From an uncultured Lachnospiraceae bacterium (GTDB taxonomy: Bacteria; Bacillota; Clostridia; Lachnospirales; Lachnospiraceae), in assembly GCA_900544445.1 (NCBI GenBank), contig UQVK01000024.1, positions 1 to 39,610 of the forward strand: a stretch of DNA of 39,610 nt, in the 5' to 3' direction. A program made the translations under genes and the position numbers. Positions 3,076 to 34,743 of the stretch are shown piece after piece. Position 1 is the first letter of the stretch. Each line of letters starts with the position of its first letter. The notes below the pieces were generated by a model. The model worked only from the letters and a program-made list of their open reading frames with translations. It did no database searches and was not told the origin of the DNA.

Positions 3076-3118
3076 GGGCTTAGGAGATGAGCCCTGTTTT
3101 GTTTGTCTTTTTCTTTTT
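3076..3118 (+). promoter_or_regulatory. glpP leader hairpin with T-rich tail, possible GlpP target
   Basis: GGGCT (3076-3080) pairs with AGCCC (3090-3094) around a loop containing AGGAGATG, and a T-rich tract follows. The loop resembles AGGAGAGATGAG just before the terminator at 3748, so it may be an autoregulatory site of the antiterminator. The stem is only 5 bp, so this is tentative. Confidence 0.35.
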
Positions 3119-3140
3119 ATGGAAATGGCTGGAAATATCT

Positions 3141-3707
3141 ATGAACAGAAAATTTATGGAACAATTTGAAGACTGCCCGGTGATCGCCGCCGTGAAGGAC
3201 GAAGAAGGCCTGAACGCCTGCCTGGGATCGGAAATCGGAATCGTGTTCGTTCTTTACGGAGATGTCTGTACCATCCCTGAAATCGTCCGGAAGCTGAAAA
3301 AAGGCGGAAAAACGGTTATCGTCCATATCGACTTGATCTCCGGGCTGTCAGCAAAAGAAGTTGCGGTGAACTTTATCCACACCAATACGGAAGCAGACGG
3401 AATCATATCCACAAAACCTGCCCTGATCCGGCAGGCAAAAGAGCTTGGTATGTGTACCGTCATGCGTTTCTTTGCCATCGATTCCATGGCCTTTGACAAC
3501 ATCTGCAGGCAGTCTGAAGCGGTTCGCCCGGATGTGATCGAGGTGCTTCCCGGACTGATGCCGAAGGTCATCAGAAGGATCTGTGAAGAAAGTCCGATTC
3601 CTGTCATCGCGGGAGGACTCATCACCGAACGGGAGGATATCGTAGCGGCGTTAAATGCGGGAGCCGTTTCCATATCCACCACCAATCGGAAGGTCTGGTT
3701 TATGTAA
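3141..3707 (+). CDS. glpP: Glycerol-3-phosphate-responsive antiterminator GlpP
   Basis: The 188-residue product matches the GlpP family of Firmicutes, RNA-binding antiterminators built on a TIM-barrel fold that let RNA polymerase pass a leader terminator when glycerol-3-phosphate is bound. Visible signatures include VHIDLISGLSA, the segment GIISTKPALIRQAK, RPDVIEVLPG and PVIAGGLI, which give the phosphate-binding loops of the barrel. The ATG at 3141 was chosen over 3087 because homologues start close to the ED-CPVIAAV segment and the upstream residues look like translated leader. The gene has its own promoter and is followed by a leader with a strong terminator before the flavoprotein operon, which is the arrangement expected for its target. 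Confidence 0.9.
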   Translation: MNRKFMEQFEDCPVIAAVKDEEGLNACLGSEIGIVFVLYGDVCTIPEIVRKLKKGGKTVIVHIDLISGLSAKEVAVNFIHTNTEADGIISTKPALIRQAKELGMCTVMRFFAIDSMAFDNICRQSEAVRPDVIEVLPGLMPKVIRRICEESPIPVIAGGLITEREDIVAALNAGAVSISTTNRKVWFM

Positions 3708-3727
3708 TAAGCTTAACATAATATAAT
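3699..3727 (+). promoter_or_regulatory. Possible promoter of the flavoprotein operon leader
   Basis: TATAAT at 3722-3727 lies 17 bases after a weak -35 match (TTTATG, 3699-3704) that overlaps the end of glpP. A start near 3734 would give a leader beginning just before the AGGAGAGATGAG motif and terminator. Only the -10 element is good. Confidence 0.4.
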
Positions 3728-3737
3728 TTTATTTGCA

Positions 3738-3797
3738 GGAGAGATGAGACAGCAAATTCACACGTCAGAAGACGTGTTGTTTTTGCTGTCTTTTTTA
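3738..3797 (+). terminator. Leader terminator, predicted GlpP-controlled
   Basis: GACAGCAAA (3748-3756) pairs with TTTGCTGTC (3782-3790), and ACACGTC (3760-3766) pairs with GACGTGT (3771-3777) on an AGAA loop. A T run follows (3790-3796). Directly upstream is AGGAGAGATGAG (3738-3749). A strong terminator between glpP and a glycerol-3-phosphate dehydrogenase-like operon is the classical GlpP leader layout. The terminator is seen directly; GlpP control is inferred. Confidence 0.75.
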
Positions 3798-3808
3798 TAT
3801 CAATTTAT

Positions 3809-3922
3809 TGCCGCCTGCGGCGGCGGAAAAAGAGGCCGGCACGAACCCGATGGGTCGTGCCAAAGAACGGCTACCGCCGTTCTTTTATGATTGAATGCCG
3901 CCTGCGGCGGCGGAAAAAGAGG
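3809..3922 (+). repeat. Hairpin-rich element bounded by 27-bp direct repeats
   Basis: The same 27-base sequence occurs at 3809-3835 and 3896-3922. It contains GCCGCC-TGC-GGCGGC, a 6-bp stem, followed by GGAAAAAGAGG, which in the second copy serves as the ribosome binding site of the next gene. Between the copies are two more hairpins: GGCACG/CGTGCC with a CCCGATGGG tip (3838-3861) and a perfect 10-bp stem AAAGAACGGC/GCCGTTCTTT (3862-3885) followed by TTTA. The last could act as a second terminator. Confidence 0.85.
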
Positions 3923-3927
3923 TAGTC

Positions 3928-5436
3928 ATGACAGATGTAATTATTATTGGTGCGGGCGTAACAGGCTGCGCCATCGCCAGAGAATTGTCCCGCTATGATC
4001 TGGATGTTCTGGTTCTGGAACGGGAAGAGGATGTCTGCTGCGGCACTTCAAAGGCCAACAGCGCCATCATCCACGCGGGATTCGACGCAGTTCCCGGAAC
4101 CTGGAAGGCCAGGCTGAATGTGGAAGGAAACCGGATGATGGATTTTCTTTCCAAAGAGCTGGATTTTCCCTTCAAAAGAAACGGCTCCCTGGTCCTCTGC
4201 TTTTCCGAGGATCAGATCGGAGGGCTGGAAGAGCTGTATCAGCGCGGCATTGCGAACGGCGTTCCCGGCCTGCGCATCGTGAAGGGAAAGGAAATCCACG
4301 AAATCGAACCCAATCTTTCCGAAGATGTATACGCCATGCTCTATGCGCCCACAGGCGGCATTGTCTGTCCCTTCAAAATGACCATCGCTCTGGCAGAAAA
4401 TGCCTTTGAAAACGGGGTACAGTTCCGCTTTCAGACAGAAGTGAAAAGTATATCCAGGAAACCTTCTTCCGGAAACAATGCTTCCGGAATACCAGACGGT
4501 TATCGGATTCAGACAGCCGATGCAGAGTATGAATGCCGGGCCGTCGTAAATGCCGCAGGCGTATACGCCGATACTTTTAACAATATGATCAGCTCCCGCT
4601 CTCTTCACATCACGCCAAGGCGCGGGGAATATATCCTGATGGATAAAAAAGCCGGCAATTTTGTCTCCCATACCGTTTTCCAGCAGCCCACCCGTCTGGG
4701 AAAGGGCATCCTGGTCACCCCCACCGTTCACGGCAACCTGCTGGCAGGGCCCACAGCGGAGGATATCGCCGACAAGGAGGCTACAAATACCACGGCAGTG
4801 GGGCTTTCACAGGTAATGGAAAAAGCCCGTCTCAGCGCATCACGCATTCCCCTAAACATGGCGATCACCTCCTTTTCCGGCCTGCGGGCCTGTGAGGAAA
4901 AGGGCGACTTCGTTCTGGGAGAAGCAGCAGACGCACCAGGCTTTTTCAACGCCGCAGGCATCGATTCTCCCGGCCTTTCCAGTGCGCCTGCCATCGGCGT
5001 CCTGCTGGCCGGACAGATTGCAGAGAAGCTTCACGCTTCCAGAAGAACGGAATTTCATGGGCAGAGAAAAGACATTCCCTGCGTTGCCACATCCACGCCG
5101 GAGGAAATCGCGGCACTCATCGCTTCTGATCCCGCCTACGGAAATGTGATCTGCCGCTGTGAAACCGTAACGGAAGGAGAAATCATCAATGCCATCCGCC
5201 GTCCCTTGGGCGCCAGAAGCCTGGACGGCGTCAAGCGTCGTACCCGCGCAGGTATGGGACGCTGCCAGTCAGGATTCTGTTCTCCCAGAGTCATGGAGAT
5301 TCTGGCGAGAGAGCTGGACGTATCCCCTCTCACTCTCACGAAATCCGGAGGCAGCTCCCGGCTTCTGACCGGAATGACAAAGGATCAGACAGACACAGTT
5401 TTCACAGAAAGGAAAAACGGACATGATGGAATATGA
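3928..5436 (+). CDS. GlpA/LhgO-like FAD-dependent oxidoreductase with BFD-type iron-sulfur domain
   Basis: The 502-residue flavoprotein begins with a dinucleotide-binding motif (IIIGAGVTGCAIARELS, residues about 5-21) of the DAO/glycerol-3-phosphate dehydrogenase fold. It ends with a BFD-like [2Fe-2S] domain: CRC near residue 408, then CQSGFC about 35 residues later. This architecture is that of GlpA-type anaerobic glycerol-3-phosphate dehydrogenases and of LhgO-like enzymes. Position after glpP and its leader terminator makes glycerol-3-phosphate oxidation to dihydroxyacetone phosphate the best guess. The ATG at 3928 follows AAAAAGAGG; an earlier ATG at 3895 would translate the upstream repeat. 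The gene overlaps the next one by 14 bases. Confidence 0.85.
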   Translation: MTDVIIIGAGVTGCAIARELSRYDLDVLVLEREEDVCCGTSKANSAIIHAGFDAVPGTWKARLNVEGNRMMDFLSKELDFPFKRNGSLVLCFSEDQIGGLEELYQRGIANGVPGLRIVKGKEIHEIEPNLSEDVYAMLYAPTGGIVCPFKMTIALAENAFENGVQFRFQTEVKSISRKPSSGNNASGIPDGYRIQTADAEYECRAVVNAAGVYADTFNNMISSRSLHITPRRGEYILMDKKAGNFVSHTVFQQPTRLGKGILVTPTVHGNLLAGPTAEDIADKEATNTTAVGLSQVMEKARLSASRIPLNMAITSFSGLRACEEKGDFVLGEAADAPGFFNAAGIDSPGLSSAPAIGVLLAGQIAEKLHASRRTEFHGQRKDIPCVATSTPEEIAALIASDPAYGNVICRCETVTEGEIINAIRRPLGARSLDGVKRRTRAGMGRCQSGFCSPRVMEILARELDVSPLTLTKSGGSSRLLTGMTKDQTDTVFTERKNGHDGI

Positions 5437-10176: not shown

Positions 10177-10677
10177 TTAGACAGGTTGCTTTTCATTCTT
10201 CAGCTCTCTCACGATCAGTCTGGAACCGCTTACCTTTATGATTTCCAGCTTTGCTCCCTTTGATATGTATTTTCCTTCTGAAAGCACATCAAAGCTCACG
10301 CCGTCGAAGTTTCCCACGCCCGTTGGCCTCAGATCCGTATCCGCCGTTCCCTGTTTTCCAAGCAGATAATCCAGGTCCCCCGAGCTGATGTAGCCCTCCT
10401 CCTTCTTCTGTTCTTCCTCAAGAACAATGGGAGAATGAAGCTTTCCCTTCGACAGAAGCCACAGAATGACCGCCATCATGATGCCCAGAAGCGCAAGCAC
10501 GATCACCGTGATAAAAGCGCCCTCTTCCACCGTATCCGCCGTCACGAATACGCCGGCGACCAGACAGATGATGCCGCAGATTCCCGGCGCGCCAAATCCG
10601 GGCACCACCATCTCAATTCCAATCAGAATAAATCCCGCAAGAAAGAGAAGAATTCCAAGTGCCAGCAGCACATCCAT
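10177..10677 (-). CDS. NfeD-like membrane protein
   Basis: The 166-residue protein has three to four N-terminal membrane segments (residues 1-80, including ILLFLAGFILIGIEMVVPGFG and IVLALLGIMMAVILWLL) and a C-terminal OB-fold-like NfeD domain (residues about 115-163, with GVGNFDGVSFDVLSEG and GSRLIVREL). It is the short NfeD type without a ClpP-like protease domain, the form that accompanies flotillins. Its start follows GGAGG and is preceded by a GC-rich hairpin resembling the repeat near 3.8-3.9 kb. Confidence 0.88.
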   Translation of the reverse strand: MDVLLALGILLFLAGFILIGIEMVVPGFGAPGICGIICLVAGVFVTADTVEEGAFITVIVLALLGIMMAVILWLLSKGKLHSPIVLEEEQKKEEGYISSGDLDYLLGKQGTADTDLRPTGVGNFDGVSFDVLSEGKYISKGAKLEIIKVSGSRLIVRELKNEKQPV

Positions 10678-10683
10678 GCTTTA

Positions 10684-10711
10684 CCTCCTTTTTCCGCCGC
10701 CTCCGGCGGCT
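10684..10711 (-). repeat. GCCGCC hairpin before the nfeD ribosome binding site
   Basis: On the minus strand GCCGCC-GGA-GGCGGC is followed by GGAAAAAGGAGG and the nfeD start. The two copies near 3.8-3.9 kb have the same stem with a TGC loop and the same GGAAAAAG-AGG tail, so this is a dispersed ribosome-binding-site-associated hairpin. Confidence 0.75.
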
Positions 10712-10755
10712 CTGAATCCTGTGGATCCGGATTCTCCGGTCCGTTCTGTTCTTTT

Positions 10756-10794
10756 ATTATACGGAATCCGGACAGAACCGCCAGTCCTGTCCGG
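10756..10794 (-). promoter_or_regulatory. Predicted promoter of nfeD-floA with overlapping inverted repeat
   Basis: A perfect TATAAT (complement of 10756-10761) lies about 80 bases before nfeD, with only a weak -35 (CTGGCG, 17-base spacer). A perfect 8-bp inverted repeat CCGGACAG/CTGTCCGG (10768-10775 and 10787-10794) covers the -35 and looks like an operator. Confidence 0.5.
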
Positions 10795-10812
10795 TAAGTT
10801 ATACAATACCGC

Positions 10813-34235: not shown

Positions 34236-34382
34236 CCTCCATGCCGAAGCGATATGCTGAGGCCGCGAGGAGAAATCACGCAGGTGATTTCTCCTCTGCG
34301 ATCACAGCAGTTTTGTGCTTCGGCGCAAAACTGCCGATTGAGAAACAAGCCATCGGGCTTATTTCTCAATCTTTCCTCCATG
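34236..34382 (-). repeat. Three-hairpin element in the hydrolase leader, bounded by CATGGAGG
   Basis: Three near-perfect hairpins follow each other: a 13-bp stem GAGGAGAAATCAC at 34267-34296 with a GCAG loop, a 12-bp stem with a UUCG-type tetraloop and one G-T pair at 34307-34334, and a 10-bp stem GATTGAGAAA at 34336-34371 with an inner stem tipped by CCATCGGG (CCCGATGG on the minus strand). The element is bounded by two CCTCCATG copies at 34236-34243 and 34375-34382; on the minus strand each reads CATGGAGG, a ribosome-site sequence. This could be an insertion with target duplication or a structured regulatory leader. Confidence 0.8.
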
Positions 34383-34455: not shown

Positions 34456-34482
34456 GTGATTGTATTGTATACAAAAAGGAGA

Positions 34483-34537
34483 TGTTTCACGTGAAACATT
34501 TTCGCTTGAACAATATTTTAATGTTTCACGTGAAACA
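34483..34537. promoter_or_regulatory. Two parS centromere sites
   Basis: TGTTTCACGTGAAACA is present twice, at 34483-34498 and 34522-34537. It is the consensus ParB-binding palindrome and is placed before parA-parB. Sites start 39 bases apart. They act as loading sites for ParB sliding clamps in chromosome segregation. Confidence 0.97.
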
Positions 34538-34546
34538 TATGACAAC

Positions 34547-34743
34547 GTTACTATTCACAGCTACCCCATCTGCATTCGCACCCGTCGCCTCTTCGAGGCT
34601 CCAGTCTTGCGCCTTGCGACGTTAAGGCTGCTTATGAAAGGTGGGATAACTGCTTCGCAGTCCTGATTCAGAATGGATACCACGCGCTTACGTGCAAGCA
34701 CGACGTGCGTGTTGTCCATTCTGAATCGACTGTGAATAGTAAC
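34547..34743. mobile_element. MITE-like element with 14-bp terminal inverted repeats
   Basis: GTTACTATTCACAG at 34547-34560 and its exact reverse complement at 34730-34743 enclose a 197-base non-coding element. Inside are short hairpins GCCTC-TTC-GAGGC (34587-34599) and ACTGC-TTC-GCAGT (34649-34661) and a 13-bp inverted repeat GATTCAGAATGGA (34665-34677 with 34715-34727). No transposase or clear target duplication was seen. It separates parS from parA. Confidence 0.8.

Follow-up and report, generated by a model that had tools for sequence, protein, structure and literature searches.

Dispersed palindromic repeats are common in bacteria, and the REP sequences among them are associated with Y1/RAYT transposases. 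We know of no dispersed palindromic repeat placed so precisely between a Shine-Dalgarno sequence (SD) and a start codon, with a substitute SD, as the elements described here. REP/RAYT sequences, MITEs and Rickettsia palindromic elements are short palindromic dispersed repeats, the last of which likewise land where a gene remains usable. A review of MITEs (PMC10969869) makes no mention of SD-start placement in its accessible part, and the words "ribosome", "Shine" and "start codon" are absent from it. BOX elements of Streptococcus pneumoniae, as portrayed in the available portion of their description, are small, modular, dispersed and structured, with some transcribed as part of leaders, and BOX, RUP and SPRITE are over-represented between convergent genes (PMC3049150). 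Similar in position to the present elements are the SAS and ESAS motifs of cluster K mycobacteriophages and cluster EF Microbacterium phages: according to the accessible sections of the reports (PMC3203893, PMC7302621, PMC12699233), these are repeats of unknown function that directly precede the start codons of certain genes at the ribosome-binding site, many of them with an inverted repeat immediately before them, and in cluster K they occur as 11-19 copies of a fixed 13-bp sequence with one imperfect inverted repeat. The chromosomal TAACTGA repeats of Beggiatoaceae are also many, lie no more than several nucleotides upstream of start codons and show no pattern in their downstream genes; they are directly repeated heptamers, two to six per set, and a hairpin module with its own SD is not described in the available part of that source (PMC4679880).

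Two hairpin modules in one contig

The whole stretch of DNA analyzed here, 39,610 nucleotides long and termed the window, is by sequence comparison assigned to the genus Eisenbergiella (Lachnospiraceae). Six Eisenbergiella MAGs encode relatives of its GlpA-like protein (3928-5436) with a best-segment identity of 89-93%; the figure falls to 80% in a seventh MAG and to 77% in E. tayi. Before this gene lies locus A (3810-3922, + strand), which the preliminary description had read as consecutive hairpins between two copies of a ribosome site, an arrangement that is present in the sequence: HS1, H1, H2, a linker and HS2 follow in that order, so that two hairpins are framed by two copies of a third hairpin with an SD. 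The identical 26-nt copies of hairpin and SD, GCCGCCTGCGGCGGCGGAAAAAGAGG, at 3810-3835 and 3897-3922, both fall within a 33-nt direct repeat of 94% identity. The predicted fold of 3800-3930 has an energy of -61.1 kcal/mol against a shuffle mean of -43.3 (z -4.66; reached by 0 of 200 shuffles). Locus B (34236-34371, minus strand; fold z -8.0) comprises four hairpins with an SD at its end, behind which the start codon of an alpha/beta-hydrolase-like gene follows at 34230-34228 (minus). The features are as follows.

3735..3796, + strand: leader hairpin with a T run, downstream of the GlpP-type gene and ahead of locus A (read from the sequence; kept in L001-L005)
3810..3835, + strand: HS1, hairpin GCCGCC-TGC-GGCGGC, spacer and SD AAAGAGG, first copy (read from the sequence; ortholog L004 is without HS1)
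3838..3861, + strand: A hairpin H1, GGCACGAACC/GGGTCGTGCC, with the tip CCCGATGG at 3846-3853 (stem covaries in 45 units)
3862..3885, + strand: A hairpin H2, AAAGAACGGC/GCCGTTCTTT, loop TACC (read from the sequence)
3886..3896, + strand: A linker, TATGATTGAAT (consensus among A units TATGATTnAAAT)
3897..3922, + strand: HS2, second copy of hairpin and SD, the SD source for the GlpA-like gene (ATG at 3928-3930)
10685..10795, minus strand: weaker A-like copy before an NfeD-like gene (10177-10677, minus) (37.3 bits, E 1.3e-6)
34336..34371, minus strand: B hairpin H1, with the tip CCCGATGG (read from the sequence)
34307..34334, minus strand: B hairpin H2, loop GCCGAAGC able to pair with GCTTCGGC directly before the SD (read from the sequence)
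34267..34296, minus strand: B hairpin H3 (read from the sequence)
34236..34263, minus strand: B 3' end, the last hairpin (34243-34263) and the element's own SD GGAGG (34236-34240) (read from the sequence)
34375..34379, minus strand: older SD GGAGG upstream of element B, corresponding to the SD at the empty site (single SD in the G005 ortholog, L048)

The weaker copy at 10685-10795 is clear only at its hairpin and SD end, where the hairpin GCCGCCGGAGGCGGC precedes the SD. Element copies affect start calls, as at the GlpA-like gene, whose longest open frame opens on the border of HS2, at 3895; the likely start, 3928, is 33 nt further in. The leader hairpin at 3735-3796 is a neighbor of locus A and lies outside the element; it looks like an intrinsic terminator that would be under the control of the GlpP-type antiterminator encoded at 3117-3704 (PF04309, 1.7e-68), and this conserved leader behind the gene (3117-3796 together) is probably a GlpP antitermination site. 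Near locus B, a perfect 14-nt inverted repeat, GTTACTATTCACAG/CTGTGAATAGTAAC, with arms 169 nt apart and more stems inside (34547-34743), looks like another, unrelated MITE-like insert before a soj/parA-like gene, and two inverted copies of ATGTTTCACGTGAAACATT (34482-34500 and 34520-34538) beside parA/parB-like genes look like parS centromere sites.

The preliminary description had proposed a family of modular hairpins at ribosome-binding sites, linked by the tip CCCGATGG that H1 of locus A shares with a "third hairpin" at 34336-34371. The shared tip is real, the hairpin in question being the first in reading direction, and the family proves to be two high-copy families, modular in their tandem units, lost or swapped hairpins and empty sites; the tip as their common mark did not survive. 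In the window it has 3 matches against 1.74 expected, a count reached in 25 of 100 shuffles. Alignment with relatives finds it in two (L004, L005) of the five glpA orthologs that retain locus A, the tips of the other three being CCCACTGG, CCTCGCGG and CCTCACGG, and the H1 loop is variable over 45 A units. Samples of the relatives G001, G005 and G006 contain 14, 12 and 25 occurrences, of which 1, 4 and 3 fall within element B and none within element A. The chance-level window count, the loss in orthologs, the variable loop and the occurrences outside A rule the tip out as a mark of the family. In G001-G007 its frequency is 1.7 to 4.6 times that of the reversed control, and in G008-G010 the ratio is 1.2 to 1.7, an excess of which B copies account for a part at most. 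As far as their sequences indicate, A and B have layout and position in common and no detectable common sequence.

Number, placement and history of the copies

Searches of genomic DNA returned at least 14-50 matches to A and at least 23-48 to B per genome in seven Eisenbergiella genomes (G001-G007), and none to either in E. tayi (G008), AP025576.1 (G009) or Murimonas (G010). With covariance models derived from 45 A and from 27 B sequences, 61 genomes were searched, most of them MAGs, in which per-genome copy counts are lower bounds. The A model has matches in 13 of the 61, with at least 30-72 copies in each of eight (at least 72 in G001, 67 in G005, 59 in G007, 58 in G003, 51 in G013, 44 in G006, 38 in G004 and 30 in G002), at least six in G011 and five in G014, and at least one each in E. 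tayi, G009 and G012. Matches to the B model occur in 18, with at least 29-53 copies in each of nine (at least 53 in G001, G006, G007 and G011, 51 in G005, 34 in G003, 32 in G002, and 29 in G004 and G013), at least 17 in G026 and G028, 16 in G014, 12 in G045, eight in G020, two in G025 and one each in G017, G024 and G030, and none in G008, G009 or G012. The A model found 11 matches of at least 36 bits in 360 kb of G001, four of them overlapping sequences used to build it, and its best score in 400 kb of E. tayi was 20.8 bits. Plasmid carriage was set aside, as no match to B occurred among 72,556 plasmid records, and 60 stretches matching a degenerate 16-mer in viral contigs are presumably chance matches.

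Beyond their high copy number, the elements are conspicuous for same-strand placement before start codons and, for B, for an SD-like left flank. Loci for the placement counts were chosen by match score or by stretch, irrespective of position, and orthologs of different species were entered separately; a start codon was accepted, by a simple ORF rule, if at least 50 codons, or all those to the end of the locus, were open behind it. Among 70 3'-complete A matches, deduplicated by sequence, 52 are followed by a start codon at a distance of 2-22 nt; in the remaining 18 another unit adjoins directly, recognizable by its A core in 17 and divergent in one (L130). The B matches number 61, of which five are internally shortened, two are cut at contig edges and 54 are 3'-complete; a start codon lies behind 51 of these, and in the remaining three an ATG or GTG opens a shorter frame. 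The same test succeeds at 24.7% of random positions and at 34.9% of positions after GGAGG. Distant loci found with the models precede a start codon in five of five cases for A and six of seven for B, the exception being L202 (G024). The left flank of B has an SD core in 31 of 45 copies, compared with 3.8% of control positions. Where the neighbor is readable (46 B copies), 28 follow a same-strand ORF, eight of them starting no more than 15 nt from its end and thus in intra-operon SDs. Judged by eye, the downstream genes of the copies look unrelated.

A general habit of placing hairpins before SDs was considered as an explanation. Hairpins of at least 6 bp ending 0-12 nt before an SD, compared with those at a control distance, number 10 versus 6 of 170 in G001, 12 versus 3 of 191 in G005, 13 versus 3 of 152 in G006 and 11 versus 2 of 192 in E. 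tayi; since the effect is modest and E. tayi shows it too, the habit does not explain the families.

Filled and empty sites occur side by side among relatives, as do hairpin loss, hairpin exchange and tandem repetition. At the site of locus B, the relative G005 (L048) is element-free and reads CGTACATGGAGGAAAAAATGACT. In the window, CGGACATGGAGGAAA is followed by the element, which runs from GATTG to GGCATGGAGGTAA, and the element by AAATGACT; apart from this the flanks hardly differ, and the two proteins share 98% identity. For 16 of 51 B genes another genome provides an ortholog with an identity of 75% or more, eight occupied and eight empty (seven and nine by the automated call, in which the comparison of L127 with L026 was an artefact of start-codon choice, the element being present). 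Such orthologs exist for 29 of 50 A genes, 14 all occupied, 11 mixed and four all empty by the automated call. A looks older than B. At glpA the module is kept in five relatives, including L004, which is without HS1; L006 and L007 have no module, and in E. tayi and AP025576.1 the SD is preceded by just one hairpin. In some B copies (L044, L054, L119, L127) the third hairpin is swapped for one with an SD-like loop, for example GCCGAACTGGAGGTTCGGC, and in L147, L148 and L059 it is missing.

Flanking hairpin and SD copies are readable on both sides in 29 of 43 A units, with a mean of 2.0 edits within a locus and 5.05 between loci; pairs no more than two edits apart make up 19 of 29 within loci and 6.8% between loci. 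Matched copies of this kind are what a long target duplication would leave, and later homogenization can be their source too: at a fucose-isomerase locus both copies have altered together between species (L183, L184), which indicates that homogenization is also at work. The B junctions have an SD on both sides but show no target duplication that is constant. T follows the right-hand GGAGG in 27 of 55 B copies, compared with 22% in other genes, so that the element itself supplies part of the right end.

We consider it probable that loci A and B each represent a small dispersed hairpin element that fills the space from the SD to the start codon and carries an SD at its own end; with that SD at the right spacing, the gene keeps a usable initiation site. 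No gene was seen within A or B elements. Against this explanation, the analysis found no enzyme and caught no insertion within one species, L202 lies away from a start codon, the junctions of B are inconstant and the matched hairpin and SD copies of A may stem from homogenization.

Stem upkeep and competing explanations

Strong stem covariation is observed in both families. Of the pair cells in 45 A units, 96.0% are paired; two-sided changes affect 44 cells and one-sided changes 11. Among 27 B units the corresponding values are 96.4%, 100 and 17. H2 of A has 98.0% of cells paired and two-sided changes at four pairs. The two-sided counts were reached by 0 of 500 shuffles (means 10.1 for A and 21.0 for B), slid structures gave counts of 2-12 and 3 of 500 shuffles equalled A in pair types, a lesser measure; because the rows are related, some being orthologs, and the structures come from single rows, these serve as controls and not as probabilities. 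In 23 of 27 B copies the H2 loop and the bases just before the SD form 7 or 8 of the 8 pairs, with double changes present, and 90.9% of cells are paired in the main part of this helix. G-U pairs are few in the stems of both elements, and the scarcity of such one-sided changes points to the DNA level.

The A layout is not tied to one stem sequence. It occurs with different stems in L062, L119, L051 and L131; a further candidate in G006 (L147, 16917) looks like a coding repeat. With unrelated stems it occurs once each in E. tayi (L187), AP025576.1 (L184) and G012 (L183), before the same gene, which in E. tayi encodes a fucose isomerase C-terminal domain; such single copies, in genomes otherwise devoid of A matches, may represent the ancestral state. 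A stem-blind search that required a row of three perfect hairpins ahead of an SD and start codon gave 13 cases in 1.12 Mb of G001, G005 and G006, a density that is not unbiased since these stretches lie partly on contigs known to hold copies, and none in one 400-kb control stretch of E. tayi or in one block-shuffled copy of the 1.12 Mb. It found none in the window, which we attribute to an imperfect pair in H1 there. The A-type layout is beyond chance.

These features bear on the alternative that the copies constitute a cis-regulatory RNA family, folded leaders through which a protein or small molecule would switch a regulon's translation, the H2 loop of B pairing with the bases just before the SD. 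Covarying stems are expected of it, as is the retention, through double changes, of the pairing between loop and SD-adjacent bases, and same-strand placement and the persistence of A at glpA in five relatives agree with it. A selected RNA accords poorly, however, with one-sided cells so outnumbered by two-sided ones (11 versus 44 in A, 17 versus 100 in B), with unrelated-looking downstream genes, with presence that differs between close relatives and with one layout built on stems of unrelated sequence. Rfam 15 has no window match at gathering score, those at E up to 1 lying far below it. The predicted mean unpaired probability of the SD is 0.58 for A (n=45) and 0.48 for B (n=46), against 0.375 for other SD genes (n=150), and shows no clear difference from shuffled leaders (p 0.053 for A, 0.64 for B); a more open SD was accordingly dropped as the element's function. 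We regard such a family as unlikely.

Origin of the units in place, by tandem duplication and template switching in replication and without transposition, would account for tandem units, for flanking copies matched within a locus and for perfect stems, template switching being a published way of keeping stems perfect, as the accessible part of PMC8794818 has it. The same cores nevertheless stand before unrelated genes in dozens of copies, and the clean empty site lies beside a gene whose protein is 98% identical; this origin is improbable. Slightly more doubtful still is near-random insertion in which the only survivors are copies that leave the gene translatable. An SD-carrying element would indeed be best tolerated between SD and start codon, yet harmless places such as gene ends should hold copies too, and the 3'-complete copies (70 A and 54 B) precede a start codon or another unit, except for three B copies in which the ATG or GTG opens a short frame. 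That the elements are ordinary intrinsic terminators or attenuators is scarcely credible: their GC-rich leader stems are strong and the leader hairpin just upstream (3735-3796) does look like a terminator, but the element stems of both window loci have no following T run, and the copies are homologous across unrelated genes and have a fixed SD end.

Returning to dispersed elements, two candidate mobilizers were weighed. The Y1 (IS200/RAYT) transposase (PF01797) had no match in the B-carrying genomes G001, G003, G005, G006, G011, G013, G014, G020 and G025, all drafts in which absence is not final, and is present in some other genomes; its absence from several B-rich drafts makes it an unlikely mobilizer. 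A reverse transcriptase (RVT_1) occurs in the A- and B-rich G001, G002, G003, G005, G006, G007 and G013; loci of the protein and its relatives include L265 (G001), L266, L267, L268, L269, L271, L272 and L273. It has retron-like NAxxH and VTG motifs and is kept unusually widely for a retron. As a mobilizer it looked promising at first, but a relative (L275) also occurs in E. tayi, which has no B and one A copy, and RVT_1 has no match in the B-bearing G014, G020, G025, G028 and G045; G004 has only a short, unrelated-looking frame. A matches of at least 40 bits near the reverse transcriptase are more than 2.5 kb distant, no A- or B-like module lies upstream of it in five loci and no long element versions with the same ends were noticed in the sampled stretches.

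On the dispersed-element explanation, copies would spread through a trans-acting enzyme acting at GGAGG-type sites, and the SD would be a safe harbor, since insertion with SD restoration would do little harm. The scarcity of G-U pairs would mean that stems are kept perfect at the DNA level, either through an enzyme that recognizes single-stranded hairpins or through repair by replication template switching. Once transcribed, the hairpins would belong to the 5' leader and would affect translation mildly at most. It is possible, and we advance it tentatively, that A and B represent a class of mobile element addressed by the SD itself, which rebuilds the SD on insertion, uses housekeeping leaders as near-neutral sites, keeps its stems perfect at the DNA level and has its identity in layout instead of sequence. 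If so, the safe-harbor strategy would be open to any element in gene-dense genomes, and the copies would offer natural material on how hairpins beside an SD alter translation and an unusual test of how perfect stems are kept up during sequence drift.

Relation to known repeats

We found no description of the A or B family in the open-licence literature. Unlike REP sequences, B is abundant in several draft genomes with no match to a Y1 transposase. No inverted repeat joins the ends of B; the flanking hairpin and SD copies of A, being palindromic, are direct and inverted repeats at once. Whereas BOX, RUP and SPRITE favor the space between convergent genes, A and B lie before start codons. Both are, like SAS and ESAS, located at the ribosome-binding site of selected genes, but they differ in residing in bacterial chromosomes, in dozens of copies, with three or four hairpins, tandem units, variable stems and empty sites, and the 13-bp SAS, GGGATAGGAGCCC, has no match in the window with up to 2 mismatches. 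Membership in none of these groups is shown; A and B resemble the phage SAS/ESAS motifs in position, and the BOX, REP and MITE repeats in kind.
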